Below are positions 9,519-54,739 of a stretch of 64,000 nt of DNA, piece by piece. This DNA comes from Acerihabitans arboris (GTDB lineage Bacteria > Pseudomonadota > Gammaproteobacteria > Enterobacterales > Enterobacteriaceae). The notes under the pieces are model-generated. The model was not told the DNA's origin, did no database searches, and worked only from the letters and a program-made list of their open reading frames with translations. The position numbers and the translations under genes were made by a program. Where the stretch lies: positions 1-64,000 of the forward strand of contig NZ_WUBS01000014.1 of NCBI RefSeq assembly GCF_010131535.1. The letters are read 5' to 3'. Positions within the stretch are counted from its first letter, which is position 1, and every line of letters begins with the position of its first letter.

Positions 9519-10892
9519 ATGTCAGTGCCAGCGATAGAATGGGATTCGGCCCTCATTCAAAAATATAATCAATCAGGGCCGCGCTATACGTCCTACCCTA
9601 CCGCCCTGGAGTTTAGCGAAGGGTATGACGAGGCCGCTTTCATCTACGCGGTGGCGCGCTATCCTGCCCGCCCGCTGTCGCTGTATCTGCATCTGCCGTT
9701 TTGCCACAAGGGCTGTTACTTCTGCGGCTGTAATAAAATCGTTACCCGCCAGCCGGAAAAAGCCGATCGTTACCTGGATGTCCTGGAGCAGGAAATCCTC
9801 CGGCGCGCGCCTTTGTTCAAGGGCCGCCTGGTCACGCAGATGCACTGGGGCGGCGGTACGCCCACCTTTTTGTCGCCGGCGCAGATATCGCGCCTGGTGG
9901 CCCTGGTGCGTGAACAGTTTACCATCGCCGCCGGCGCCGAGATGTCCATTGAAATCGACCCACGCGACATCGAACTGGAGATGATGGATCATCTCCATGC
10001 CGAAGGGTTTAACCGCATCAGCATGGGCGTGCAGGATTTTGACCCCGAGGTCCAGCGGCTGGTCAACCGGGAACAGGATGAACAGCTGATCTTCGATCTG
10101 ATCGGCCGCGCCAAGGCGCTGGGTTTCCTTTCCACCAATATCGATCTGATTTACGGCCTGCCGCGCCAAACGCTGGCGAGCTTTCAGCATACCCTGGCCC
10201 GGGTGATAACGCTCAACCCCCAGCGGCTCAGCGTATTCAATTATGCGCACATGCCTGCGCTGTTTGCCGCCCAGCGGAAAATCAAAACCGCTGATTTACC
10301 GGACGCGGCACAAAAAATGGACATTTTGCAGCATTCCATCGCCGCGCTTTGCGATGCGGGCTATCAGTTTATCGGCATGGACCATTTTGCGCGTCCGGAC
10401 GACGAATTGGCCGTGGCGCAGCGTGCCGGCAGGCTGCATCGCAATTTCCAGGGTTACACCACCCAAGGCGACTGCGACTTACTGGGGCTTGGCATCTCGG
10501 CGATTAGCATGATCGGGGATAGCTACGTGCAGAACCAGAAAGAGATGAAGAGCTACGTGGCAAGCGTTGCGCGCCAGGGCAACGGATTATGGCGCGGCGT
10601 GGCGCTGTCGGACGATGACCGCCTGCGCCGTGACGTGATCAAGGCGTTGATTTGCCAGTTCCATATCGATTTCAGCGTACTGGAAAACCGCTATGCCGTG
10701 CGTTTTACCGATTATTTCGCCGATGATATCGCGCTGCTGCGGCCCCTTGAGCGCGACGGACTGGTGGCTCTCTCCGAACAGGCGATAACGGTCACGGCCA
10801 AAGGACGCCTGCTGATCCGCAATATCTGCATGTGCTTTGATATCTACCTGCGCAATAAATCGCTCCAGCGCCAGTTCTCACGGGTGATTTGA
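9519..10892 (+). CDS. hemN: Oxygen-independent coproporphyrinogen III dehydrogenase
   Basis: A 457-residue radical SAM enzyme that converts coproporphyrinogen III to protoporphyrinogen IX when oxygen is absent. The iron-sulfur cysteines are C62-x3-C66-x2-C69-x-C71 in FCHKGCYFCGCNK, and the SAM-binding GGGTPTFL follows. The YGLPRQT segment and the C-terminal HemN domain (LRRDVIKALICQF, RLLIRNICMCFD) are intact. AAGGAG lies 10 bases upstream of the ATG. Length matches the family exactly. Confidence 0.97.
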   Translation: MSVPAIEWDSALIQKYNQSGPRYTSYPTALEFSEGYDEAAFIYAVARYPARPLSLYLHLPFCHKGCYFCGCNKIVTRQPEKADRYLDVLEQEILRRAPLFKGRLVTQMHWGGGTPTFLSPAQISRLVALVREQFTIAAGAEMSIEIDPRDIELEMMDHLHAEGFNRISMGVQDFDPEVQRLVNREQDEQLIFDLIGRAKALGFLSTNIDLIYGLPRQTLASFQHTLARVITLNPQRLSVFNYAHMPALFAAQRKIKTADLPDAAQKMDILQHSIAALCDAGYQFIGMDHFARPDDELAVAQRAGRLHRNFQGYTTQGDCDLLGLGISAISMIGDSYVQNQKEMKSYVASVARQGNGLWRGVALSDDDRLRRDVIKALICQFHIDFSVLENRYAVRFTDYFADDIALLRPLERDGLVALSEQAITVTAKGRLLIRNICMCFDIYLRNKSLQRQFSRVI

Positions 10893-39361: not shown

Positions 39362-41401
39362 ATGTCAGACACTATTGAACCATTACTTGCGGTACCCGCG
39401 TATCGCCAGATAGTCATTCCCCTGTCGGATGGCGTGCGGCTTGCCGCCCGACTGTGGTTGCCGGATGGCGACACCCGGGTTCCGCTGGTGCTCGAATGGA
39501 TTCCTTATCGCCAATCCGATAATACGGCGGTGGGCGACTCGATGATCCACGGCTTCTTCGCCGCCCATGGCATGGCCGCCATGCGTATCGACCTGCGCGG
39601 CAGCGGCAACTCCACCGGGCTGCTGCAAGACGAGTACCTGGCCCGGGAGCAGGATGACGCGGTGGAGGTAATAGCCTGGATCGCCGCCCAGCCGTGGTGC
39701 AACGGCAACGTCGGCATGATCGGCATCTCCTGGGGCGGTTTTGCCGCGCTGCAGATCGCCGCCCGCCGGCCGCCGGCGCTGAAGGCCATTATTACCTGTT
39801 GTTCCACCGACGATCGTTATGCCGACGACGTGCATTTCATGGGCGGGGCGCTGCTGACCGACGGGCTGCAATGGGGCAGCGGCTTGTTTACCCAGCTGGG
39901 CCGGCCGCTGGACCCGGCCCATGTGGGCGAGGGCTGGCGCGATTTATGGCTGCAACGCCTTGAGGGCATGGAGCCGCCGCTCGGCCGATGGCTGGCGCAT
40001 ATGGAGCGCGACGATTTCTGGCGGCACGGATCGGTATGCGAAAACTACGACGATATCCAGTGCGCGGTCTATGCGGTGGGCGGCTGGACCGATGGTTATT
40101 CCGACGCCATCCTGCGCCTGATGGCAAACCTGAACGTGCCGCGCAAAGGGCTGATCGGTCCCTGGACCCATATCTATCCTAACTGGGGCACGCCGGGACC
40201 GGCTATCGATTTCCTCGGCGTTTGCCAACGCTTTTGGCGGCAATGGCTGCTGGGTGAGGAGACCGGTATTATGGACGAGCCGATGCTGGATCTCTGGCAG
40301 GGGGAGCATTTACGTTCGGAACCCTCGTCGCTGACTCTCGATGGCCAGTGGATCACCGCGCCGGGCTGGCCGGTGGCTTCGCCAAGCCGGGATTTCTACC
40401 TGGCCGACGGCCGGTTGTCGGACCTTCCGCCTCCGCCTGTGCCCGCGTCCGCCTCAATGAACGCGCCGACGCATACGCCCACATCCTCGCTGGTGATAGA
40501 TACGCCGATGCACTGCGGCCTGATGGCCGGCGAGTGGTGCCCATTGGACGGCGGCGGCAACGCGCCGGAATTCCAGGACGATCAGCGCCAGGACGACGGC
40601 CTGTCGGTCTGCTTTGATACCCCGGTCCTTAATGAGCCGTTGATCCTATGCGGCAAGGCCGGGCTGGAAGTGGATATTGCTTTTGATACTCCCTCGGCCA
40701 TGGTGATCCTACGGTTAAACGAGGTAGCCGCCGACGGCCGCTCCGCCCGCATTACCTTTGGCATCCATCGGCTGGTGCGTCCCGATGTGCCGGCCGGGCA
40801 GGCCTTTCGGGTGGTATTGCCGTTAAAAGGCGTTGCCTACCGTTTTTCCCCTGGCTGCCGGGTGCGCCTGGCGCTGTCGACCACCTACTGGCCTATGGCC
40901 TGGGCCGAGCCCGGCCAGGGGCCGGTAACGCTGTTCCCGCACGGCGCGGTGTTCCGCCTGCCGTCCCGTGCGCCGGACGTGCTGGATCGCGCCGGGCCGT
41001 TTGGGGCCGCCCGTTCTGCGCCCGCGCTGGACCATGATATATTGGCGCGGGAAGTCACGTCACGCCAGGTACAATGGGACGCGGCCAGCGGTACGCACCG
41101 GCTGACCATGGATGCCAAACGGCAGCAGACCCGCATCGGCGAGCTGAGTTTTGACGGCGAGGGCCATGAGTCCTACGATATCGGCGCCACGCCTGAAAGC
41201 GCCCGCTGGGAGGCAGTACGGATGCAGCGTTATACCCGGCCCGGCTGGCATATCGAGCTGCGCAGCGAAACAACCCTGGCCTGGAAAGACTCCGCGCTGA
41301 TCCTGACCTCCCGCTATGAAGCGCGGGAAAACCAGCAGGTGGTGTTTGAACGGCGGTGGGAACAGCAATTTGCCGCAAGAATTAACGGCAAAAACACCTG
41401 A
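39362..41401 (+). CDS. CocE/NonD family serine hydrolase (copy 1)
   Basis: A 679-residue hydrolase of the X-Pro dipeptidyl-peptidase/cocaine esterase group. The alpha/beta-hydrolase domain has the nucleophile S123 in GISWGGF, D244 in GGWTDGYSD and H270 in GPWTH, which fit the expected catalytic triad. A C-terminal jelly-roll domain with [17 protein letters not shown] and [17 protein letters not shown] follows. Such enzymes cleave esters or amides of acylated compounds, for example cocaine, ampicillin-type esters or Xaa-Pro peptides. No signal peptide is seen, so it acts in the cytoplasm. It follows the importer and MFS genes and has a paralogue at 43280-45289. Confidence 0.9.
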
Positions 41402-42512: not shown

Positions 42513-43283
42513 TTAATACAAATCGGCCCGGCGGTCCGCGATGTAAGGATGATTTAGCCGCCAGGCGCTGAGCGTTTCCAGGCTGATGTCCGCCGTTATA
42601 AATGCCGCCCCGCCCGAGGGCGCCGTCGCTACAATGGCGCCGTCCGGTCCGGCCAAGCGGCTTTGACCAACGCAGGGGAACGCGCCGCCGGTATCGCCGC
42701 GATTGGCAAAAACGACATAACAGCCGTTTTCATAGGCCCGGGCGGGCACCGTATGGCGGGGTACTACGTCATAACCGGCGCTGGTGGCGCTGATGCACAG
42801 CAGGCAATCCATACCGTTTGCCGCCAGCGCGCGCGCCGCTTCGGGAAAATCCAGGTCGTAGCAGATAAGCAAACCGAAATTTAACCCTTCCAGCACCACG
42901 TTGACCAGCCTGTTGCCGGGGCGGAACAATGCCGTCTCGTAACCGGACCATAGATGGGTCTTGCGATAATTAGCCAACACCCGGCCATGGCGATCGATAA
43001 GGCGCAGCGCATTATACAGCCCCTCGGCGCCCCGCTCGGCATAGCCGAATACCAACGCCTGCTGCTTTTCCCGCGCCAGTTCCGCGAGTGCCTGCAGGGT
43101 CGCGTCGCCTTGGGCCAACGCCATACGCTGGATACGGTCGGGATCGTCATATCCGCACAAGGCCAATTCCGGCAGCATGATCATATCGGCGTCCGGCAGG
43201 GCGTCCATCGCCGCGCGCACCCAGTCCGCGATCCCGCCCCGCCCGGCGGGCGCGCCGGTTATCTGGGCGATGCCAATCTTCAT
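42513..43283 (-). CDS. Nitrilase superfamily carbon-nitrogen hydrolase
   Basis: A 256-residue amidase of the CN-hydrolase superfamily. The catalytic triad is E39 (LPELALCGY), K108 (YRKTHLW) and C141 (LLICYDLDFPE). Such enzymes hydrolyse amides or nitriles, often with small amino-acid-derived substrates. The ATG at 43283 overlaps the stop of the upstream hydrolase (ATGA), so the two enzymes are made together. The substrate is unknown; it probably acts after the hydrolase, on an amide that the hydrolase frees (inference). Confidence 0.9.
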   Translation of the reverse strand: MKIGIAQITGAPAGRGGIADWVRAAMDALPDADMIMLPELALCGYDDPDRIQRMALAQGDATLQALAELAREKQQALVFGYAERGAEGLYNALRLIDRHGRVLANYRKTHLWSGYETALFRPGNRLVNVVLEGLNFGLLICYDLDFPEAARALAANGMDCLLCISATSAGYDVVPRHTVPARAYENGCYVVFANRGDTGGAFPCVGQSRLAGPDGAIVATAPSGGAAFITADISLETLSAWRLNHPYIADRRADLY

Positions 43284-45289
43284 GATACCTCTCCGCCAGG
43301 CCGGGCGCCGGGGAAAAACGGGAAATAATCTTCCCAGCGGCGCGAGAAGATGGCGCGGTCATGATCAAAGGCATCAAGGCTGGACTCAAGCCGCCAGCCG
43401 TCGTGGTCCGCGCTTAGCCGGGTGGTCACCTCCAGCCTGGCCTGCCAGTCGCCGCGCTGAAAACCGGCGCTGCGCACCGCCTCGGAACTGGCCGATAGCG
43501 GGTCGAGAGCGTTCACCCTATACGTTTCCCGTCCCAGTGCGTCCAGGCGCAGGCCGGTTTCCTCCAGCATCAGCGCCCCGAGGTTGCGCGCCACCTCCAG
43601 GGTGGTATCGCCGTCATCCATATCCCGGACCAGGCGCAGGCGTCCCCGCTGCGGCGGCACCAGCACCCGGGCAGGGACGGGCGCTGGCGACCGGGGAGCG
43701 CCGAGATCCGGCGCGGCGCACGGGTCGATTATGTCGTTGCGCAGCGGCAGTTCAACGCTGCCGGCGTACAGCGTGACGACGGCGCGCGTCGGCAGGGGGG
43801 CGGCCAAAGGCCAGTAGGCGGTGGAAACGGCCACGCGCAGGCGAAAGCCGGCGGGCAGCTCAAACGCGACGGCCTTAAGCGGCAGCCGGACGGTATAATG
43901 CCCGCCAGGCACCAGCGGCTCGCAGCGATCGTGGCCGTTACGCTGGGTCAGGTTAAGCAGGCCGTAGGTGATTCGGATAGAGGCGCCGTCCGGGCCAACC
44001 GCGTTCAGGCGTACCGCGATCATGGCCTGTGGCCGATCGGCGGCCAGCTCAATATTGATGATCGGGCGGCCCAGGATCTGTAGCGATGTATCGGCTACCG
44101 GCCCGTCGAAACAGGCGGAACCGGCGTCGTCCTCGCGCTGGTCACCGGGCATATCCGGACCCCAGCCGTAAGGACACCACTCTCCCGACGCGATGCCGGT
44201 GGTGGCCGGCGAACAGACGGTGATGGCGAACGGCGGCGACGCGGCCGGCTGCAAACCCCCGGCAGCCAGGTGAAGGATCCGCGCGCCGGGCGACTCAGCC
44301 GGCCACCGGCGTTCGGCAACCCAGCGGCCGCGCCGCGCCGGATAACGGGCGCGCGCGGGCTCCGCTTCCTGCATCCAGCAGGTCAGCATTGGCTCATCCA
44401 TAATGCCGGTCCGCTCACCCTTAAGCCAGTGATCGAACCAGCGCGTGACGTAGCCGATAAAATCGATTTGCGGTCCCGGCGTGGCGATATGCGGGAACGC
44501 GTGGCCCCAGGGGCCAATCAGGCCCTTGCGTGGTCCCGGCAGGTTTTCCAGCAGGCGCAGCACGGTGTTGGTGTAGCCGTCCGCCCAGCCGCCGACCGCC
44601 AGCACCGGCACCTGGACGGCGGCGTAATCCTCGCAGACCGAGCCGCTGCGCCAATAGTCGTCGCGTACCGCATGGCGCATCCAGCGCGCCGGGGGCGGCT
44701 GGTCCATGGCCTGCAGCCGCTCCAGCCAGATATCCCGCCAGCCGTCGCCGACGATATCGGGGTCGGGCGGGGTCGGCGTCCAGGTAAACAGCGTGGCGCC
44801 ATACTGCAGGTTATCGTTAAGCAGCACGCCGCCCATATAATGCATATCATCGGCATAGCGGTCGTCGGTGGAGCAGGCGGTAACGATGGCTTTGAGCGCC
44901 GGCGGCCGCAGGGCGGCGATTTGCAACGCGTTAAAGCCGCTCCAGGAGATGCCTATCATCCCCACCGCGCCCGCGCACCAGGGCTGCGCGGCGATCCAGG
45001 CAATCACTTCGCAGGCGTCGGACCATTCCTGCGGCGTATATTCGTCGTTCATCAGGCCGTCGGAATCCCCCGCGCCGCGCATGTCGACCCTGACCGCGGC
45101 GTAACCGGCTTCGGCCAGGGCTGGATGCAAGATGGCATCGTCCCCGCGATGGCGATCGCGCCGCCGGTAGGGCAGATATTCCAGTATCGCCGGCACCGGC
45201 CCGGGGGCATCCGGCAACCACATCCGCGCCGCCAGCCGACAGCCGTCCGACAGGGTGATCCACACCGTTTCAATTATCCGCATGGGCAT
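43280..45289 (-). CDS. CocE/NonD family serine hydrolase (copy 2)
   Basis: A 669-residue paralogue of the hydrolase at 39362-41401, alike from end to end. The triad residues are S115 (GISWSGF), D237 (GGWADGY) and H263 (GPWGH). The segments [11 protein letters not shown] and GLIGPWGHAFP are shared with copy 1. A C-terminal jelly-roll domain is present. The ATG at 45289 gives MPMRIIETVWITLSDG. It is cotranscribed with the nitrilase gene and converges on the regulator gene. Direct repeats spaced 21 bases lie about 65-90 bases upstream. Confidence 0.9.
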   Translation of the reverse strand: MPMRIIETVWITLSDGCRLAARMWLPDAPGPVPAILEYLPYRRRDRHRGDDAILHPALAEAGYAAVRVDMRGAGDSDGLMNDEYTPQEWSDACEVIAWIAAQPWCAGAVGMIGISWSGFNALQIAALRPPALKAIVTACSTDDRYADDMHYMGGVLLNDNLQYGATLFTWTPTPPDPDIVGDGWRDIWLERLQAMDQPPPARWMRHAVRDDYWRSGSVCEDYAAVQVPVLAVGGWADGYTNTVLRLLENLPGPRKGLIGPWGHAFPHIATPGPQIDFIGYVTRWFDHWLKGERTGIMDEPMLTCWMQEAEPARARYPARRGRWVAERRWPAESPGARILHLAAGGLQPAASPPFAITVCSPATTGIASGEWCPYGWGPDMPGDQREDDAGSACFDGPVADTSLQILGRPIINIELAADRPQAMIAVRLNAVGPDGASIRITYGLLNLTQRNGHDRCEPLVPGGHYTVRLPLKAVAFELPAGFRLRVAVSTAYWPLAAPLPTRAVVTLYAGSVELPLRNDIIDPCAAPDLGAPRSPAPVPARVLVPPQRGRLRLVRDMDDGDTTLEVARNLGALMLEETGLRLDALGRETYRVNALDPLSASSEAVRSAGFQRGDWQARLEVTTRLSADHDGWRLESSLDAFDHDRAIFSRRWEDYFPFFPGARPGGEVS

Positions 45290-46217: not shown

Positions 46218-47270
46218 TTATCTCCATTGGGATAAACACATTTCCGCGACAATACCCGGACCAAAACCGGCAATGATAGCTTTGCCGCCTGTTTTAAACA
46301 GGCTGGATTCATGCATCCGCCGATAAGCTTCGAATACCACCGAGCTGGCGATATTGCCGCAATTGACCAGCGTGTCGCGGCTAAATGAAAATTGCTCCCG
46401 CTGCACGCCGAGGTATTTACATAAATCGTCCAATATTCTCGGCCCGCCCGCGTGGATAATGTAGTAATCAAGCTTATCGATTTCCCAGCCATGCGCGTGG
46501 GCAAATTCCGTCATCACCGGCGCCAGGGGTTTCATCGTGCCGGGCACGCGTTTATCCAGCCGGAAGTGAAAACCGGTGTCTTTTACGGCATAGCGGATCC
46601 ATTCATCGGTTTCCGGAATTAAATAACTGCTGTTGCGCTGTAACTCCAGCCCGTTGCCGGAATGGGCGGTGACTACCGCTGCGGTTATCGCATCGCCAAA
46701 CAGGCCGTCCGAAAGGAGACTGCCGATATCACCGTCGGTAGGCTGATAGCTTAGCGAGCAAAATTCACAGCTGACAATCAGTACGTTGCTGTCGGGATGC
46801 GCGACGATAAAATCCAGCGCCCGGTTTATCGCCGCGCCGCCCGCGGCACAACCCATTTGCGATATAGGAATTTGCACGGTATCGAGGGGAAATCCCATTT
46901 TATTGATAAGCCATGCGGTTAAGGACGGCATCAAAAAGCCGGAGCAGGAAACGTAAATTATCGCTGAAATATTCTTGGCGGTAATATCGGCATGGCCTAG
47001 CGCTTCCTCAATCACTCCCGGAACAAGTCGTTTTGATTGATACTCAAAAATTGCATTTCTATAGCCAAAGCCAGGGTGAAGAGATGCAAGTTCAATTGGT
47101 TGAATAATATGTCTTTTTTTAACACCTGTATTGGTAATAAGGTCGATTGCTTTATCCAGGTTGGGATTATCCTTGAATTCCCGTTTAGCTAATTCAATCG
47201 TATCCTCCAGGGTAATAATATATTCCGGCAGATAAATTGCTGGTTTGTGTAGTGTAGGCATTTTTAGCAT
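46218..47270 (-). CDS. Type III polyketide synthase (chalcone synthase-like)
   Basis: A 350-residue condensing enzyme with the thiolase fold. The catalytic triad of type III synthases is complete: C141 in QMGCAAGGAAI, H273 in IIHAGGPRI and N306 in NCGNIAS; the GFGPG loop near the C-terminus is also present. Bacterial relatives make tetrahydroxynaphthalene, phloroglucinols or alkylpyrones from malonyl-CoA. The product cannot be told from sequence alone. It stands alone, without a methyltransferase or oxidase next to it. Start ATG 47270 has GGAG only two bases away; ATG 47261 (MPTLHKP) is an alternative. The gene and its upstream region are AT-richer than the core genes. Confidence 0.9.
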   Translation of the reverse strand: MLKMPTLHKPAIYLPEYIITLEDTIELAKREFKDNPNLDKAIDLITNTGVKKRHIIQPIELASLHPGFGYRNAIFEYQSKRLVPGVIEEALGHADITAKNISAIIYVSCSGFLMPSLTAWLINKMGFPLDTVQIPISQMGCAAGGAAINRALDFIVAHPDSNVLIVSCEFCSLSYQPTDGDIGSLLSDGLFGDAITAAVVTAHSGNGLELQRNSSYLIPETDEWIRYAVKDTGFHFRLDKRVPGTMKPLAPVMTEFAHAHGWEIDKLDYYIIHAGGPRILDDLCKYLGVQREQFSFSRDTLVNCGNIASSVVFEAYRRMHESSLFKTGGKAIIAGFGPGIVAEMCLSQWR

Positions 47271-47879: not shown

Positions 47880-48719
47880 ATGATCAACCATTATTGGGTC
47901 GATATCTCCAGGGATAATGATACGCAGGTCGAAACCATCAGGGCACATTTCGAGGGCCATGCCTACGATGCCCATTGGCATGACAGTTATCTGATAGGGG
48001 TAACGGAGGCGGGGATCCAACAATTCCACTCAGGGAAGATAAAATACCGCAGCACGCCCGGCAAGGTGTTTGCGCTGGAACCGGGAGATGTCCATGACGG
48101 CGATGCCATCGATCGGGCTGGATTCACCTATCGTATGCTTTACATCCCGCCTGGGCTGTTTCATCAGGCGTTGCCGGCTATTTTTGACCAGGCGCCGGAT
48201 CGGTTTGAAATGTCTTTTCCGGCGACGCTTATCGACGATCGCCAACTGGCCACGGTTACCCTGGCGGCATTTGACGCGCTGCATTTCCAGGAGCTGAAAA
48301 TCGTCAGGGACTATCGGATACAGCAATTGATATTGTCCCTTACCCGGCGGTTCCCCTGGCGTAAAAAGCCCGGCCCGGAAGGGCATAAAACCCCGGCGGT
48401 CCATCGTGTGCGGGACTATCTTCACGATATGATGAGCGAAGATATTGGCCTGACAGAACTGGCCGCCGTGGCGGGGATGGATCGTTTTCGCTTAAGCCGC
48501 GAGTTTGCGGCAACCTTTGGCCTGCCGCCCCATGCCTATTTGGTACAACTGCGCCTGGCCAGATCGCGCAGGCTGCTGTCGTTGGGCGTCAGCCCGGCGG
48601 ATGTGGCCGCCCTGACGGGGTTTGCCGATCAAAGCCACCTGGGCCGCTGGTTCAGGCGCGCTTATCAGATGACGCCCGCCGCCTACCGGCAGATCTGCAC
48701 AAACGTTCCAGACCGCTAA
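47880..48719 (+). CDS. AraC family transcriptional regulator
   Basis: A 279-residue regulator with an N-terminal cupin sensor domain (HWHDSYLIGVTEAGIQQF, then ALEPGDVHDGDA) and a C-terminal pair of helix-turn-helix motifs (LTELAAVAGMDRFRLSREFAATFG and ADVAALTGFADQSHLGRWFRRAYQMTPAAYR). It ends 47 bases before a DUF2000 gene, a pairing common in proteobacteria, and probably controls it. Ligand unknown. Confidence 0.88.
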   Translation: MINHYWVDISRDNDTQVETIRAHFEGHAYDAHWHDSYLIGVTEAGIQQFHSGKIKYRSTPGKVFALEPGDVHDGDAIDRAGFTYRMLYIPPGLFHQALPAIFDQAPDRFEMSFPATLIDDRQLATVTLAAFDALHFQELKIVRDYRIQQLILSLTRRFPWRKKPGPEGHKTPAVHRVRDYLHDMMSEDIGLTELAAVAGMDRFRLSREFAATFGLPPHAYLVQLRLARSRRLLSLGVSPADVAALTGFADQSHLGRWFRRAYQMTPAAYRQICTNVPDR

Positions 48720-48766
48720 AATGCCAATGTTCTATGCTTTGTTTTCCACAACGCAGGAGAATGAGC

Positions 48767-49201
48767 ATGAGTACAATTATTGAAACAATTTCCGTCCAGC
48801 CTGAACGATGCGTTATCGTTCTCAACCAAGATTTGCCGTCAGGCAAAGCGGCCAATGCCTCCGCGGTCATCGCCCTCACCGTGGGCCAGCGTCATCCTGA
48901 ACTGGTGGGCGCGCCGTTGATCGATGCGGATAACGGCGAATATCCGGGGCTTATCCCGATCGGCATCCCGGTGCTGAGTGCTCATGAGGAAACGCTGAAA
49001 AATCTATCCACGATGTGTCGACAACAGGGCCTGGACCGGGTGATATTTCCCATCGAAGGGCAGGAAACCACGGACTATCATGATTTCCGCGCCGCGTTAC
49101 TGCTACAAAGGCCCGAAGAGCTCCGGCTGCTGGGTATCGCGATTATCGGCAATAAAAAAACGGTACGAAAGCTCACCGCCAACTGCAAGCTGTTTGGCTG
49201 A
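48767..49201 (+). CDS. DUF2000 domain-containing protein
   Basis: A 144-residue protein of DUF2000. Family features are the start RCVIVLNQDLPSGKAANASAVIALTVG, the central PGLIPIGIPVL and the C-terminal LRLLGIAIIGNKKTVRKLTANCKLFG. The function is not established; the fold resembles peptidyl-tRNA hydrolase II. The ATG at 48767 has AGGAG 7 bases upstream, better placed than ATGs at 48761 or earlier. It follows the AraC gene on the same strand. Confidence 0.85.
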   Translation: MSTIIETISVQPERCVIVLNQDLPSGKAANASAVIALTVGQRHPELVGAPLIDADNGEYPGLIPIGIPVLSAHEETLKNLSTMCRQQGLDRVIFPIEGQETTDYHDFRAALLLQRPEELRLLGIAIIGNKKTVRKLTANCKLFG

Positions 49202-49307
49202 CCCGATAGCGGCCGGATCCGTTCCCTATGGGGCGCCATGATAGCTAAAAACAGTCGCCGTGCTTAAGCACGGGCCAGCCGCCGCTGGCCTTGGGCCGAT
49301 GGTATCA

Positions 49308-50507
49308 TCAGTTATGGTCCAGATGATGCAGCGCAAACAGTCCGATCAACACAATACCGAAAGTGATCACTAAGCTGAGACCGGCATTTTCGGTCAGCCA
49401 AAATATCGCCTGCGTGCCGCCTTCACCAAGCGCGCCAGATAAAGATAATAACCCGAGGTAAAATGTTTTTCGCTGGATGAACCGGGTCTGCATGGCCAGG
49501 CCGTATAACTGGCCGAATGCGATATAACCGCCGAACGCCAGCACGGCTAGTGAAAACAGTAAAATATAAAAATTGTGCATGCTCAGCACGATAAAAAGCA
49601 ATGCCGCTAAAATTGCAATCAGCCCGATGCTGGCATTACAGATACTATTTTGCCGGAAGATATCAGTGTGTCTGAGCAAGAAAAAGAGTAATACGACGAC
49701 AATCGCATCAAAAGATAACCAGATATTCACCCCCTCCTGTCCAAGGAAATGAGAATCCAGCGAGGGCAGGATCGTATAAACAATGGAACAGGCCGCCCAT
49801 ACTGAAAGCGCCGCCGTCCAAATCAGGAAAAATTTCTTATCAAATTCTGGTCGTTTTTCAAACATTGCAATGTTATATTCGGGACTGCTGACCTTGCCCA
49901 GACGGAAAAAATTAACTACCAGAGCCAGCAGTACCAGAATGATAAACGTGACTACCCCTTGATAAATCCCGATTGAAAAGAAAGCAAAAAATGGGCAGAT
50001 AAATGCCGACGCGTTAATAAGCATTAAATGTGTGTTAAAAATATCATGATTGATGTTGTTACCCACCAGGCTTTTGGCGTCCCGATCGGCTGATTCGAGC
50101 AGGCTGATCAGCATGGTGGTGGTAGCGCCGCCGCCGATCCCCGCAAGTAACGCAAAACCATAAACTGCTTGGGGATCCTGGCTGTATGCCATAAGCAGCA
50201 AGGAGGTAGCCTCAACTATTACTCCGGCGGTAAAAATAAACTCCCGCCGGATAAAAAGGCTAAGATAGCTGAACAGTAAAGGGGTGCAGCGATACATGAA
50301 CAAGATATACGAGTAATATAAACCTGTTTGCGCCATACTCATCTCACCGGCGCCAGCGAGTTTTAACGGTAATACGATAGCTACGCCAAGAAATAACAGG
50401 CGTTCAAGAAAATGCACGCACAAAAAATTAAGCAAACGATACCCGGCCTTCCTGACAGACGCTGCTTTTTGATCGGCAAAATTGGGTTTATTCAAAAAAT
50501 TTAACAT
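49308..50507 (-). CDS. MFS transporter, probable exporter of the peptide-modification operon
   Basis: A 399-residue protein with about twelve hydrophobic spans, for example FLERLLFLGVAIVLPLKL, LAGIGGGATTTMLISLLE and FSLAVLAFGGYIAFGQLYGLA. It belongs to the major facilitator type, but I cannot name a close family. Its ATG overlaps the stop of the enzyme gene in front (TGATG), so it is the last gene of a coupled operon with two RRE-oxidase genes and a 24-residue peptide. Export of the finished product is the likeliest role (inference). Confidence 0.8.
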   Translation of the reverse strand: MLNFLNKPNFADQKAASVRKAGYRLLNFLCVHFLERLLFLGVAIVLPLKLAGAGEMSMAQTGLYYSYILFMYRCTPLLFSYLSLFIRREFIFTAGVIVEATSLLLMAYSQDPQAVYGFALLAGIGGGATTTMLISLLESADRDAKSLVGNNINHDIFNTHLMLINASAFICPFFAFFSIGIYQGVVTFIILVLLALVVNFFRLGKVSSPEYNIAMFEKRPEFDKKFFLIWTAALSVWAACSIVYTILPSLDSHFLGQEGVNIWLSFDAIVVVLLFFLLRHTDIFRQNSICNASIGLIAILAALLFIVLSMHNFYILLFSLAVLAFGGYIAFGQLYGLAMQTRFIQRKTFYLGLLSLSGALGEGGTQAIFWLTENAGLSLVITFGIVLIGLFALHHLDHN

Positions 50508-51499
50508 CAGTAATTGTACACTCGTCTCAGGTCGTTTTTTTGGCTATAAAATTCTACTATCTGCCGGTCTTCCTCAAAGAGCATTTCAATAAGATTGCAA
50601 ATATGCACCAGAATAACATTCTGCTCCTCAACAGCAATAACGGGAATTTCTCTCAACAGATTCAGGGTTATCAAATCATGGTCGCTCTCTTCGTTAATAT
50701 CCGAATGTGTTATTATTGGGTTATAAAATTCTTCCGGCAGACCTTTATTGATGCATGCATCAATAAAGGTATTGTTAAACATCTGACTTGGTGTTTCAAA
50801 CAGCAAGAGGGCGCTGAAGAAGCTCAAGAAATGCTGGCGGGCATAAACGCCCAGGCTGGCATTAGCCATAAATGTAGCGGGTAATGGCTGCCGTGCCAAC
50901 AATACCGATTCATCGATGCCAACCTCGCTCAGGCATGCCAGCAACATTTTATCATGGTCATACTCCTCGATAAACAGGCCCAGCAGCAGGGCACGTATAT
51001 TTTCATTCAGGTTATGGCTTAACGCGGGGGCAATAAGCGCCGGTGACATTTTCACGAGATGATAGTATTCCATAGCAAAACCAATAATTTCATTATTTGT
51101 TATTTTCCCTGAGACCATTCGACTATAAAATGGTGAGTCTCCGGCATTATATTGCCATTTTCGCACTACGGGGAGCAAACGACTAAAATAAAAATCCTCA
51201 CCGCTAAGCGCGCCGGTTTGCTTGATTTGCATGCCGTCATCTATCAGGCCCAGCTTATCCAGGCGTTGAATGATTTCTACACAACAGAAACCTTCGTTTT
51301 CTGAAAATTTCTGTATTAAGTTCTTGGTACTGTATTTACCTTTCGCTAACGTTTTCAGGAATAGGAATAGTTTGTTTTTTGTTTCCGGCTCCACGGTAAT
51401 ATCGCAGCCCTGTTCATGATAATGCAAGGCAATACCGGTATCATTAGTCGTAATAGCAACCCCTTTTCTTAATCGTGGAAAACAGAAAAAATTATTCAT
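50507..51499 (-). CDS. PqqD-like/haem-oxygenase-like oxidase fusion (copy B)
   Basis: A 330-residue protein of two parts. Residues 10-90 look like a PqqD-type winged helix (RiPP recognition element): TNDTGIALHYHEQGCDITV, LFLFLKTLAKGKYSTKNLIQ and VEIIQRLDKLGLIDDG. Residues 105-310 have the all-helical haem-oxygenase/PqqC/TenA-like fold with a possible di-iron set: E144 and H147 (MEYYHL), E179-x2-H182 (EEYDHDK), E235, H265, E271 and H274. The same residues occur at the same spacing in copy A. Such domains oxidise amino-acid or peptide substrates with oxygen. Substrate unknown; the 24-residue peptide at the operon head is the prime candidate. Confidence 0.7.
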   Translation of the reverse strand: MNNFFCFPRLRKGVAITTNDTGIALHYHEQGCDITVEPETKNKLFLFLKTLAKGKYSTKNLIQKFSENEGFCCVEIIQRLDKLGLIDDGMQIKQTGALSGEDFYFSRLLPVVRKWQYNAGDSPFYSRMVSGKITNNEIIGFAMEYYHLVKMSPALIAPALSHNLNENIRALLLGLFIEEYDHDKMLLACLSEVGIDESVLLARQPLPATFMANASLGVYARQHFLSFFSALLLFETPSQMFNNTFIDACINKGLPEEFYNPIITHSDINEESDHDLITLNLLREIPVIAVEEQNVILVHICNLIEMLFEEDRQIVEFYSQKNDLRRVYNY

Positions 51500-51523
51500 G
51501 ATAGTATTACCCCGTTGGTGAGA

Positions 51524-52498
51524 TCAGATTAGTCGCAAAAGAGTATGGGAGTGAGAATAATAATTCCATATTGCACGGTAATAGGCATCATAAAGTTCGA
51601 CAAAAAGGTGTGTTTGTCTTTTCATTTTAATTAATGCGTCTCGCGAAATCACCGGGATATTGGCGAACAGCTGCCGGCCAAAACTGGTATGGTTATGCTC
51701 CATATTGATAATGGAATGAGACTTGATTTTCTCAACAAACTGCCCGTCCATTCTCCCCGACTGCTCCATCGCAATGACATAGCTATCCACTTCGGCGTCC
51801 TTGCCTTCGATCACCTCCATCGTGCTAAAAAAGAACAGCGGGTCGTTGGCCGACCAATAGGCAAGGGAATTGGCTAATCCCAGCGTTTCCGGCAGGGGGA
51901 CTGAGTTGATAATATCCTGTTCGTCCATACCGAGTAATGTTAAAGCGGAAAGAATGATCTCCGCATGTCCATTTTCGTTGCAAAAAACAGTATTCATCGC
52001 CTGTCTGGTCTTGCGGCAACCGTGAAAATAAAGGGCATGGGCATCAAATGAACTGCCGCGCGCAAGTAGGTGATAATTTTCTATCGCCACGCCGACAAAC
52101 ACATTTTCAGGTATTTCACTAGGGGTATTACATTTTTTCCAGAATATATTGTTATATAATGATTTATCCATCAGGCGGTTTTGCACATCTTCTATTTCAA
52201 GTATCGCTTCTTTTCCTGAGAGGAACTCCGTCGGTAAATTTCTAGTCAATAACCCCGATTCCGACAAACAATCTATAAGCAAGGCTGCGTCTTCACAGGA
52301 TATTTGCGTTTTATTTTTCTTAATGATATCTGGTATTGATGTTTTACCGTCTAATAATAACAGGAAATTATATGCTTCATTGGGGGTTACAGGTAATACG
52401 TTGATGCTGAATTCGTCTTCGTCAGTGATCGCCAGCAGATGATTGTTTGATAAAGATAACGTGCAATTTAAATGCGGACAATAATTTAATTCGCTCAT
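51524..52498 (-). CDS. PqqD-like/haem-oxygenase-like oxidase fusion (copy A)
   Basis: A 324-residue paralogue of the next gene. Residues 8-88 form the PqqD-like part, with the family line VTPNEAYNFLLLLDGKTSI followed by LLIDCLSESGLL. Residues 125-310 form the haem-oxygenase-like part. Possible metal ligands are E140 and H143 (IENYHL), E175-x2-H178 (ENGHAE), E228, H261, E267 and H270. The order E...H, E-x2-H, E, H-x5-E-x2-H is kept in both copies. The ATG at 52498 has GGAG 8 bases upstream; the ATG at 52504 is too close. It is separated from the peptide ORF by a hairpin and from copy B by 24 bases. Confidence 0.7.
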   Translation of the reverse strand: MSELNYCPHLNCTLSLSNNHLLAITDEDEFSINVLPVTPNEAYNFLLLLDGKTSIPDIIKKNKTQISCEDAALLIDCLSESGLLTRNLPTEFLSGKEAILEIEDVQNRLMDKSLYNNIFWKKCNTPSEIPENVFVGVAIENYHLLARGSSFDAHALYFHGCRKTRQAMNTVFCNENGHAEIILSALTLLGMDEQDIINSVPLPETLGLANSLAYWSANDPLFFFSTMEVIEGKDAEVDSYVIAMEQSGRMDGQFVEKIKSHSIINMEHNHTSFGRQLFANIPVISRDALIKMKRQTHLFVELYDAYYRAIWNYYSHSHTLLRLI

Positions 52499-52512
52499 GA
52501 CCATTACTCCAT

Positions 52513-52540
52513 GAAGAAAGGCACCTCAAGGAGATGCCTT
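52513..52540 (-). terminator. Hairpin between the peptide ORF and the oxidase genes
   Basis: On the minus strand AAGGCATCTC, loop CTT, GAGGTGCCTT form a 10-bp stem (one G-T pair), followed by a T-rich tail TCTTC. It starts 15 bases after the peptide ORF. Such weak terminators often let a precursor peptide be made in excess over its modifying enzymes (inference). Confidence 0.55.
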
Positions 52541-52554
52541 ATTGGTTTGGGCTA

Positions 52555-52629
52555 TCATAGGTGCAAAGGCATCAGGACAGGATGTGTTTTTTTTGCCACA
52601 ATGATAATTTTATGGGATTTTATGTTCAT
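52555..52629 (-). CDS. 24-residue peptide, candidate RiPP precursor
   Basis: A short frame with a near-ideal ribosome binding site: AGAGGAG ends five bases before the ATG at 52629. The product reads MNIKSHKIIIVAKK followed by THPVLMPLHL: basic, with a hydrophobic centre and three histidines. It is the first frame of an operon with two enzymes carrying PqqD-like domains and an exporter, and a hairpin follows it. Size and context recall PqqA (about 23 residues) before PqqC/PqqD. It has no recognised relatives in my knowledge. Translation and modification are inferred from position and signal strength. A leader-peptide role is the main alternative. Confidence 0.55.
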   Translation of the reverse strand: MNIKSHKIIIVAKKTHPVLMPLHL

Positions 52630-53148
52630 GGTTACTCCTCTTTTGGGTTGAAAATGCGTACTGTAAACTGTCCAGCACGCGGGTGTGTTTAGCTCGGTTT
52701 ATAATTTGAATTTCGCAGTAAATGAATAAACCCCATTGTTTATTCTATAATTAGCCAAATTCAAAATAATTAGATTAAAATTGATGATCAATATTCAATG
52801 AAAGTTATGTCTCCCGTACTAAATTAGTATTTATTCGCGAGCCACGCTTTCATAAAATAACCAATCTGCCTGGCCAGTGACTTTAACTTAAATCATACGT
52901 GGACAGATTGCAATATCAAAATCATATAAAATTTCCTGATAGACTGACTGTTAATGTTGGGGCGGTTTTTCTCAGATAAATAAAAGCAAATGAATAAAAT
53001 ATGCAAATAATATATATCATATGAATGCGATATTGTTTTGCTGATTATGGGTTTAATTTTTTAAAATTACGGTCATGCAAATTGCTTATTTGATAAGATC
53101 GGCCGGCATCGTATATTTCAACAGGCTGAAATCAATATACTTTTAGCC

Positions 53149-53313
53149 ATGCTTGGGAATGGGGTTGCTTATGCATTTATAGGCGGGGTTGATTCTGAAT
53201 GGCAAATTGCCGGATTGATTTTAGGGTTAACCACAATTTTTTTGTCTGAATATTTCCCAAGTCATATTAAAGCGCATCTTAATAAAAATATTCTCAAGAA
53301 TTTCTTGAAATAA
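53149..53313 (+). CDS. Short membrane protein frame, possibly a gene remnant
   Basis: A 54-codon frame reading MLGNGVAYAFIGG, then WQIAGLILGLTTIFLSEYF and a basic C-terminus (KAHLNKNILKNFLK). The frame stays open for 36 codons upstream (EINILLA precedes the ATG) without another start, so it may be the tail of a longer decayed membrane protein. No ribosome binding site is seen. The surrounding 964 bases (52630-53593) are very AT-rich and otherwise hold only the promoter region of the peptide operon. I do not recognise the family. Confidence 0.35.
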   Translation: MLGNGVAYAFIGGVDSEWQIAGLILGLTTIFLSEYFPSHIKAHLNKNILKNFLK

Positions 53314-53593
53314 CGGGTGCATTGATAAACCTGTTTCATCACTGCAGTAACGGATTTTCGGGGTATAACATTCAAAAGGAGAACTATTATCGGTCATGGC
53401 GGTAATGTCCTGGGGGTTAAAGTCTTAATAAGCACATTTTAGGGATAAGGAATTCTTAGTCAAGTCACGATAAGGTGAGCTGGCGGGGCGGGGGCGGAGA
53501 CCCGATTTTATGATCTATTTTCGTAAAGCTGTTCACGGTTTATTTATAAGACGCACTAAAAAGTATTAGCTTATAAATAACTATACCAGCAGA

Positions 53594-54739
53594 TTACCCC
53601 TTCTGAAATCGTTCAAACCTGCCCAACGCCTCGTCAACGGCAACCTGTAGCTCCGGTCGCGGGACCGTGAACCAGGTCCATTTTTGCACCAGCAGCCTGC
53701 CCGCCGGGCGGTCCATCTTCAGATCAAGCGCGGCCACGATGTCGTCGCCCACCAGCACCGGCAGCGCGAAATAACCCAATACCCTTTTGTCGGCGGGTAC
53801 GTAGGCTTCAAAGCGGTGTTCATACCCAAAGAACAGCTGCAGCCGTTTGCGTTGAATCACCAGGGGATCAAAGGGCGACAGGATCGCGGTGCGTGGCGCT
53901 GGTGGCAGCTCAATGACTTGTTCCAGCGCTGCGGGGACGGTCCAATGCTGGATTTTGGCATGGTTGTCGATATGAACCGGCACCAGCTGTTTTTTTTTCT
54001 CCGCCGCGTCGATAAGCGTACGGACCGCCCCCTTCGCTCCCACATTGCCAAAGCAAATTGAATCCAGGCTGACCATACCCTGGGAGCGCAGGGCCCGCTC
54101 AACAAGATAGTGGGCGTACTGCTGTTCGGTGGCCGGGCGGGGACGGCGGGGCCAGCCGAAATGACGAGCGGATAAATCGTAGCTTTTTAACATGCCGGTA
54201 CGTTTGCTGACCGTCAGGTCGCCGCTGAAAAAGCCATAGCGCAGCGCGCGCCTTGACGGTTTGCGACTGCCCCAGGGGTGGGTTTTCTCCACCAGCACAT
54301 CGTCGTTGATATCCCGGATCGACAGCGCGCCGTCGTCGCGGATGCGTTTGAGCAGCGCGGCGTAATGCTGCGCATCCAGGTCGGCATACGATGCGTGGGG
54401 CTTGGCGCGAAACTGGTTCATGGCCGGCAGGAACATGCGGTAATCCGCCGTCGGCACATAGGCCAGGGCATGGGTCCAGTATTCAAACACCGATTTGGCG
54501 CCCGACTGAGCCAGCTCCAGGTCGGCGCGCCGGTAGGCGGGAATGCGTGAATAAAGGATATGATGATGGCTGCGTTCGATAACGTTGATCGTATCAATCT
54601 GCACATACCCGAGATGCCCGGTGGCCAGGCGCACGGCGTCCGGTCCTTCACCGAAAGGCGCGGCAACATCAAGCCGCTGCGCCCGCAGCCAGATTGCGCG
54701 GGCTTGTCGGGCGGTCACCGGGATAGAAGATTTGGTCAT
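53594..54739 (-). CDS. DNA glycosylase of the YcaQ/AlkX family (winged-helix, HTH_42)
   Basis: A 381-residue protein of the HTH_42 family. The catalytic QxD motif of E. coli YcaQ is present as Q47-I-D49 in GYVQIDTINVIERSHHHIL. Further family blocks are FEYWTHALAYVP, LSPFDPLVIQRKRLQLFFGYEHRFEAYVP and YFALPVLVGDDIVAALDLK. YcaQ unhooks interstrand DNA crosslinks and removes N7-alkylguanine. Similar proteins that protect producers of DNA-alkylating natural products exist (AZL-type), but no such pathway is seen here. It is a single gene, divergent from the IclR operon. Confidence 0.87.
   Translation of the reverse strand: MTKSSIPVTARQARAIWLRAQRLDVAAPFGEGPDAVRLATGHLGYVQIDTINVIERSHHHILYSRIPAYRRADLELAQSGAKSVFEYWTHALAYVPTADYRMFLPAMNQFRAKPHASYADLDAQHYAALLKRIRDDGALSIRDINDDVLVEKTHPWGSRKPSRRALRYGFFSGDLTVSKRTGMLKSYDLSARHFGWPRRPRPATEQQYAHYLVERALRSQGMVSLDSICFGNVGAKGAVRTLIDAAEKKKQLVPVHIDNHAKIQHWTVPAALEQVIELPPAPRTAILSPFDPLVIQRKRLQLFFGYEHRFEAYVPADKRVLGYFALPVLVGDDIVAALDLKMDRPAGRLLVQKWTWFTVPRPELQVAVDEALGRFERFQKG

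Follow-up and report, generated by a model that had tools for sequence, protein, structure and literature searches.

PQQ is built from Glu and Tyr of a precursor, and its biosynthesis shares three elements with the operon described here: a tiny peptide (PqqA), an RRE-type domain (PqqD; RRE, RiPP recognition element) and the haem-oxygenase fold (PqqC). A natural PqqCD fusion, returned by our fold search, has been solved (5vrd), and fusion of an RRE to an oxidase therefore has a precedent. The dimetal haem-oxygenase-like oxidases (HDOs) MboA (mangotoxin), CtCADD, UndA, PolF and BesC share their fold and metal-ligand positions with the enzymes of the operon, and MboA is described as binding a peptide C-terminus at its metal; the literature consulted mentions no RRE for any of the five, whereas the enzymes of the operon carry one as a predicted fusion.

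HDO chemistry includes C-C cleavage, azetidine and alkyne formation, and N-oxygenation (PMC13108848). In the literature consulted, thiovarsolin biosynthesis is the sole pathway in which a ribosomal peptide is the shown or suggested substrate of an HDO: the haem-oxygenase-like enzyme VarO is proposed to dehydrogenate the peptide, an action judged from a deletion mutant, and the cluster contains an MFS gene (PMC6511847). The same paper describes YcaO/TfuA thioamidation and a repeat-containing precursor, whereas the present operon has no YcaO, a 24-residue peptide, and enzymes that are duplicated and RRE-fused. A search of the open-access literature gave no description of a pathway with this make-up, in line with the original prediction.

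Layout of the operon and its surroundings

All parts of the operon lie on the minus strand of the window (the whole stretch of 64,000 nucleotides analysed), in the order originally predicted: a frame of 24 codons led by a strong ribosome binding site, a hairpin, two paralogous enzyme genes and an overlapping MFS gene. The precursor peptide gene (52555..52629; MNIKSHKIIIVAKKTHPVLMPLHL), recognised from the frame list and its conservation across genomes, begins with ATG and is preceded by the ribosome binding site AGAGGAG (52635..52641), of which AGGAG is kept in both congeners. A hairpin of 10 pairs (52518..52540), located by sequence and folding, separates it from the gene for enzyme A (51524..52504, 326 aa), which is followed by the gene for its paralogue, enzyme B (50507..51499, 330 aa, 25% identity to A). 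The last gene (49308..50507) overlaps the stop codon of B by one base and encodes an MFS transporter of 399 aa, which is present in both congeners and matches Pfam MFS_1 with an E-value of 5.4e-6, below the curated cut-off. The operon occurs in three of the six genomes of the genus.

The absence of a radical SAM enzyme and of a protease, also part of the original prediction, holds for the operon itself (Pfam scan for the former). At a distance of 4 kb, however, the same strand carries a gene for an S15-family hydrolase (43280-45289, protein domain scan), the DNA of which is also matched in a congener without the operon (G003). One radical SAM gene, HemN-like and at 9519, was found among the 17 window proteins scanned, a part of the total. 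As the operon lacks a radical SAM enzyme and the window peptide has neither Glu nor Tyr, the system is not the PQQ pathway. The evidence supports the prediction of a peptide-modification system made up of the peptide, the fused RRE/oxidase pair and the MFS gene; it does not support PQQ-like chemistry, as the operon has no PqqE and the enzymes' profile and ligands point to dimetal HDOs.

Two sets of neighbours were rejected as pathway members. A type III PKS-like gene (46218-47270) is present in 6/6 genus genomes, with 86-88% identity in the other five, vs. 3/6 for A and B; of the AraC/DUF2000 genes (47880-49201), DUF2000 is present in 5/6, and the DNA of both is matched in two genomes without the operon (G002, G005). 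An Rfam scan of window positions 49000-54000 gave no match.

Fused recognition and oxidase domains

Residues 1-99 of B were modelled alone, and the first eight ranks of a Foldseek search with this model were the PbtF RRE, ThcOx, chains of the McbBCD complex, and lasso B1/TbiB1, rank 1 alone falling below an E-value of 0.001; ThcOx and the McbBCD chains we take to contain RREs. The modelled N-terminal domain of B thus matches RiPP recognition elements by fold and is RRE-like, and the model of A (pLDDT 88.7) has a similar order of N-terminal elements, as was expected for residues 8-90 of the enzymes. The RRE is recognised at the level of fold and not by sequence profile: an N-terminal profile run against the PDB returned no RRE by title among 28 sequences at E<=10, the matches being winged-helix proteins, MarR-type ones included, and others, and Pfam gave no PqqD match. 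Such winged-helix matches would suit a reading in which the domain is an ordinary winged helix or a leftover, A and B act as ordinary HDOs on some free metabolite, and the short frame arose by chance; RREs at the top of the fold search argue against this reading, as does the distribution of the frame described below, and we find it scarcely credible.

The haem-oxygenase-like oxidase domain is assigned in A from Pfam, the model, fold matches and alignment, and in B from Pfam and alignment, with PF14518 scoring above its cut-off in B and below it in A. A fold search with the model of A gave matches of the haem-oxygenase type (3dde, CtCADD, UndA, PolF, BesC and also PqqC); MboA was matched by sequence profile, and a profile of 16 proteins supports the same helical fold alongside the model. 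The closest solved sequence relative is 3dde (E 1.2e-17), a Shewanella domain of unknown function with a 239-residue chain, the match covering the oxidase domain only. Among 13 sequences at E<=0.1, the oxidase-domain profile retrieved 3dde, CADD and MboA and no PqqC. Judged by sequence, the catalytic domain belongs with the dimetal haem-oxygenase-like oxidases (CADD, MboA, UndA) and is nearer to these than to PqqC.

Members of the HDO superfamily have a 3-His/3-carboxylate ligand set, and six ligand positions are predicted in A: E177, H180, E233, H263, N267 and H272. Five of them (E177, H180, E233, H263 and H272) are invariant in 26/26 enzymes and align with E86, H89, E143, H172 and H181 of MboA; the sixth is N267 in A vs. 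D176 in MboA, being Asn in all 19 enzymes from His-Leu operons (defined below) and Asp in the other seven. This Asn-for-Asp replacement could mean altered or lost catalysis in the His-Leu enzymes. An extra E142/H145 pair differs at one or both positions in 5/26 enzymes.

The precursor peptide and its C-terminus

Two congeners retain the peptide, with pN/pS of 0.30-0.31 in 3/3 pairs, and a short frame led by a ribosome site was present in all 20 operons read upstream (the window included), the opposite of homologous operons consistently lacking it. The 20 peptides fall into three C-terminal classes: His-Leu (nine), Cys-Gly (five) and Ala-Ala-Glu/Asp-Gln (AAEQ/AADQ; six). The His-Leu class corresponds to A+B-type operons (9/9 read), hosted by proteobacteria and Rhodococcus, and the five Cys-Gly operons have one enzyme each. 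The C-terminus is invariant within each class; the residue before Cys-Gly is Thr, but Met in R. etli. His-Leu is encoded by six different codon pairs across eight operons, indicating that selection acts on the amino acids, and one operon found after the C-terminus rule had been set (G1498) has a peptide ending AHL.

The DNA used contains 556 ribosome-site-led short frames, of which 18 end in HL or CG; 14 of these belong to operons (13 different peptides, one of them counted at two starts), leaving four such endings among the remaining 542 frames outside operon peptides. As a control, 48 usable regions of 49 chosen upstream of other HDO relatives yielded 15 ribosome-site-led frames, one ending in CG, a rough comparison because plus-strand frames were preferred when picking the HDO. 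This control and the 20/20 count weigh against a chance frame. A more distant relative, encoded by a plasmid of Enterobacter chuandaensis, would be consistent with one. This protein of 449 aa (22.6% identical to A over 92%, Asn-type motif) is outside the 20-operon count and the 26-enzyme set; a 24-kb stretch held no peptide of the three classes on its strand, and just upstream there is only a 15-codon frame ending Arg-Leu. Conservation in the congeners, together with a C-terminus kept far beyond the genus, indicates from sequence comparison that the frame is more than chance.

The frame is followed by a hairpin, the layout of attenuators, and could instead encode a regulatory leader peptide, with hairpin folding controlling A, B and the MFS gene while a small molecule is made from free amino acids. 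The window hairpin has a folding z of -3.1 (1/200 shuffles equally low), and a stem lies between peptide and enzyme genes in 12 of 13 operons folded, a set that leaves out Tistrella and six further operons; the exception is R. etli, which has no hairpin and a positive z, and z is weak (above -2) in G127, G190, G166 and G1022. However, it is amino acids and not codons that are conserved (pN/pS about 0.3 and the varied His-Leu codons); the conserved residues sit at the extreme C-terminus, whereas the hairpin varies in sequence beyond the genus; the model of B shows an RRE fold; and the Tistrella peptide gene lies 1.9 kb upstream of the enzyme gene, with an apparent other gene between. We therefore regard a leader peptide as very unlikely. 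The hairpin probably terminates transcription in part or stabilises the mRNA.

Among seven peptides tried against NCBIfam, none matched a model above cut-off, and one gave a sub-threshold lachnocin match. Among the plasmid records of Robbsia, Rhodococcus and R. etli, whose gene tables are incomplete, the peptide is listed in that of R. etli only (as a hypothetical protein); such clusters are easily overlooked as the peptide is seldom annotated.

Proposed pathway and its distribution

We consider it likely that the operon encodes a small RRE-guided pathway of ribosomal-peptide modification, probably acting at the free C-terminus of the peptide, with MFS export. From what was computed (a conserved peptide gene, a precursor whose last two residues are invariant, an RRE fold in B, and the pattern of metal ligands) we infer steps of binding, catalysis and export. 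RREs bind peptides by strand addition, and those of A and B would bind the peptide in this way at its hydrophobic central stretch (KIIIVAKK); the free C-terminal His-Leu would enter the haem-oxygenase-like domain, its carboxylate coordinating the metal pair as does the substrate C-terminus in MboA; A and B would then oxidise the last residues in turn, with Leu and/or His being desaturated, hydroxylated or oxidatively cleaved; and a short product, freed by oxidative cleavage or a household peptidase, would exit via the MFS transporter. An excess of peptide over enzymes would be allowed by the hairpin downstream of the peptide gene. In MboA, AetD, UndA, HrmI and PolF the metal is coordinated by the substrate carboxylate, which fits an invariant extreme C-terminus (PMC13185094).

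Some relatives have additional genes, for a third RRE-HDO, an aminotransferase, an ATP-grasp enzyme or an acetyltransferase. In PEARL-type pathways an amino acid is joined to a carrier peptide, modified and then removed, and the aminotransferases, together with an ATP-grasp/L-amino-acid-ligase-like gene in one relative (G124), would agree with a peptide that serves as a carrier for an amino acid modified by the RRE-HDOs, giving a product without any encoded residue; MFS export also suits a small molecule. A ligase-type gene is, however, absent from the window operon, and none is annotated in the Rhodococcus operon; moreover, an encoded C-terminus invariant per class (Thr/Met before Cys-Gly aside) is expected of a substrate. 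We judge the carrier role unlikely, and retain modification of the encoded C-terminus as the preferred reading.

The gene set and its relatives across bacteria, which carry such a peptide too even in a distant phylum, appear to form a previously undescribed family of pathways for peptide modification. On balance we lean towards an undescribed RiPP class, spanning Pseudomonadota and Actinomycetota, whose RRE-fused oxidases would modify the final residues of very short precursors; subfamilies would read His-Leu, Cys-Gly or Ala-Ala-Glu/Asp-Gln, and the Asn-for-Asp site of the His-Leu enzymes would signal new oxidative chemistry. With the RRE built in, the enzymes are directly testable with the 24-residue peptide, synthetic or co-expressed, and could yield peptide-guided HDO catalysts, and the three C-terminus classes with the Asp/Asn difference offer a ready comparison of sequence and chemistry.

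In a tree midpoint-rooted for drawing only, A and B each fall on one side of a single branch (support 97/97 and 97/98), and the pair has thus probably moved together among proteobacteria (Robbsia, Tistrella, Enterobacterales) and Rhodococcus. Several loci are incomplete or differ from the window operon: no MFS gene is annotated with the R. etli operon in a 15-kb stretch; the G127 contig ends beside B; in the G1498 record B is read in two frames; the match of the first G1515 enzyme contains an in-frame stop; and G1499 and G1504, as fragments only, were left out of the upstream reading. A phage search with B and a search of E. coli genomes with the G190 operon DNA gave no match; in the family of G1022, 4/151 genomes matched, at full length in G1022 alone. 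Weaker matches at class, order and phylum level were not counted as operons, those read being mostly HDO/TenA-type proteins of 216-280 residues; the order and phylum ones were judged by frame length only, and weaker loci served as the control. By eye, these HDO/TenA-type loci often lie beside AMP-ligase or SDR-like genes.

Organization and distribution of the operon

All parts of the operon lie on the minus strand: a short peptide frame (52629-52555), a hairpin (52518-52540) between this frame and the first enzyme gene, the paralogous enzymes A (52504-51524) and B (51499-50507), and an MFS gene (50507-49308). Genes A and B are separated by 24 bases, and the MFS gene overlaps B by one base. G+C content is 43% in the operon vs. 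55.7% window-wide. The operon is accessory in the genus: A/B were found in three of the six genomes, with flanking genes that differ among all three.

Other window genes include a type III PKS-like/DpgA-like gene (46218-47270, minus), present in all six genomes, and a pair of hydrolase genes of the S15 (X-Pro dipeptidyl-peptidase) family, one on each strand (39362-41401, plus; 43280-45289, minus), with 1.9 kb between them.

Fold and predicted metal site of the enzymes

The AlphaFold2 model of enzyme A (pLDDT 88.7) consists of N-terminal strands and three helices, followed by a helical bundle. Foldseek matched this model to 3dde, CtCADD, UndA, TenA, PqqC, a PqqCD fusion, PolF and BesC (E 5e-6 to 3.5e-3 among the 50 matches listed); sequence profiles matched 3dde, 4lqx, CADD/CT610 and MboA at E <0.001. 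With residues 1-99 of B modelled in isolation (pLDDT 84.3), 17 of the first 19 Foldseek ranks were the PbtF RiPP recognition element (RRE), ThcOx, the McbBCD complex, lasso B1, TbiB1, the 4v1u heterocyclase and MccB, and ranks 9 and 12 were the bacillamide BmdB/BmdC entry; E fell below 0.001 at rank 1 only (8.9e-4), and TM-scores were 0.5-0.6. As modelled, the N-terminal domain of B resembles chains of RRE-containing RiPP enzymes.

The metal ligands E86, H89, E143, H172, D176 and H181 given for MboA in the part of PMC13185094 consulted align with E177, H180, E233, H263, N267 and H272 of A in profile and family alignments. Five of the six positions are invariant across the 26 aligned proteins that join an RRE to a haem-oxygenase-like oxidase (HDO) domain. 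Position 267 (A numbering) is Asn in all 19 proteins from operons with a His-Leu peptide (A, B, and C, a third RRE-HDO enzyme in some relatives) and Asp in all seven others. In the tree, every enzyme type (A, B, C or single) is confined to one side of one branch.

A peptide frame upstream of the enzymes

The peptide-RRE-HDO system is real and conserved. The 24-codon frame and an identical ribosome site also occur in two congeners (peptides of the three genomes: MNIKSHKIIIVAKKTHPVLMPLHL, MGIKAKKVLIVAKKTRPVLVPKHL, MAIKSKNVVIVAKKIRPILLPQHL); across the three genome pairs, peptide pN/pS is 0.31, 0.31 and 0.30, and differences are most frequent at third codon positions.

Further RRE-HDO operons were collected by wider profile and tblastn searches, and an order-level search yielded no additional full-length one. 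Upstream of each operon we looked for a short frame preceded by a ribosome site. Twelve of the 14 operons first examined, window included, carry a frame ending in His-Leu or Cys-Gly at most 400 bases upstream; among the same 14, Tistrella has such a frame 1.9 kb upstream, and the short frame of genome G276 ends in AAEQ. The G1498 operon, discovered once the peptide rule was already set, encodes MKQQKKKVVIVATHARPVLMPAHL, and five more genomes of the G276 genus carry a 22-residue G276-like frame ending in AAEQ or AADQ. All 20 operons read thus far carry a ribosome-site-led short frame, and the frames fall into three C-terminal classes (His-Leu, nine; Cys-Gly, five; AA[ED]Q, six). His-Leu is encoded by six distinct codon pairs across eight operons. 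Three of the 20 (G004, G1022, L124) have an additional, unrelated ribosome-site-led frame.

One locus does not fit this pattern. Enterobacter chuandaensis plasmid pE20191216 encodes a 449-residue protein with a weak match to A (22.6%) and the Asn-type motif; a search of 24 kb on its strand revealed no peptide frame belonging to any of the three classes. Some 60 bases upstream of the gene is a ribosome-site-led frame of 15 codons that ends in Arg-Leu and might be a precursor. The surrounding cluster (L111:9730-18174) holds two Haem_oxygenas_2 proteins, a DUF2817 (annotated M14) peptidase, an aminotransferase, a nucleotidyltransferase and an MFS.

Predicted chemistry and gene context

The operon parts very probably define a peptide-modification pathway, which we regard as RiPP-type and possibly as a new class; the chemistry given here is a prediction. 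According to PMC13185094, substrates of MboA, AetD, UndA, HrmI and PolF bind the metal through their carboxylate, and we therefore tie the invariant extreme C-terminus of the peptide to HDO catalysis. By the same carboxylate logic, Gly of the Cys-Gly class would sit at the metal; speculatively, this class could yield alpha-hydroxylation plus C-terminal amidation, or Cys oxidation.

Among the papers listed in searches of an open-access library, none was recognised as a description of an RRE-HDO fusion or of the operon architecture; earlier accounts may exist elsewhere in print, notably in subscription journals. In the parts consulted, the thiovarsolin work is the sole source through which a 2026 review of HDOs treats modification of ribosomal peptides, and Sinorhizobium thioamide clusters contain HO-like genes (PMC8120280); PMC13108848, PMC6511847, PMC11002830, PMC12614342 and PMC13419390 were also consulted in part.

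Neighbouring genes in relatives, named by eye or from annotation where Pfam gave no call, vary. G124 has A, B, C, a class III aminotransferase, ATP-grasp and MFS; G1498 has A, B and an MFS-like gene; Robbsia plasmid p4 has A, B, C, an aminotransferase, an EamA transporter and GNAT; and Rhodococcus gordoniae pDND3A has A, B, MFS and GNAT. On Tistrella mobilis pTM3 (L096:5927-8002), A and B are fused as one 691-residue frame followed by C, with no recognisable transporter in the cluster. Two of the His-Leu clusters encode an acetyltransferase, which suggests that the product has a free amine.

Single enzymes occur with an MFS-like transporter in G190, G166 and G442, and on R. etli p42f, with no annotated transporter within the fetched stretch. 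G1022 (L088:906-4988) combines a Cys-Gly-type peptide, a single RRE-HDO and a class V aminotransferase; this locus also holds MFS and EamA-like transporters and an arginase-like protein (by eye), and a radical SAM/SPASM protein (radical SAM by Pfam). G276 has two RRE-HDO-type genes flanking a 276-residue gene, plus an MFS-like gene. A 626-residue frame with two HDO-type matches was also seen in the 8-Mb genome G706 (L089:6457-8337).
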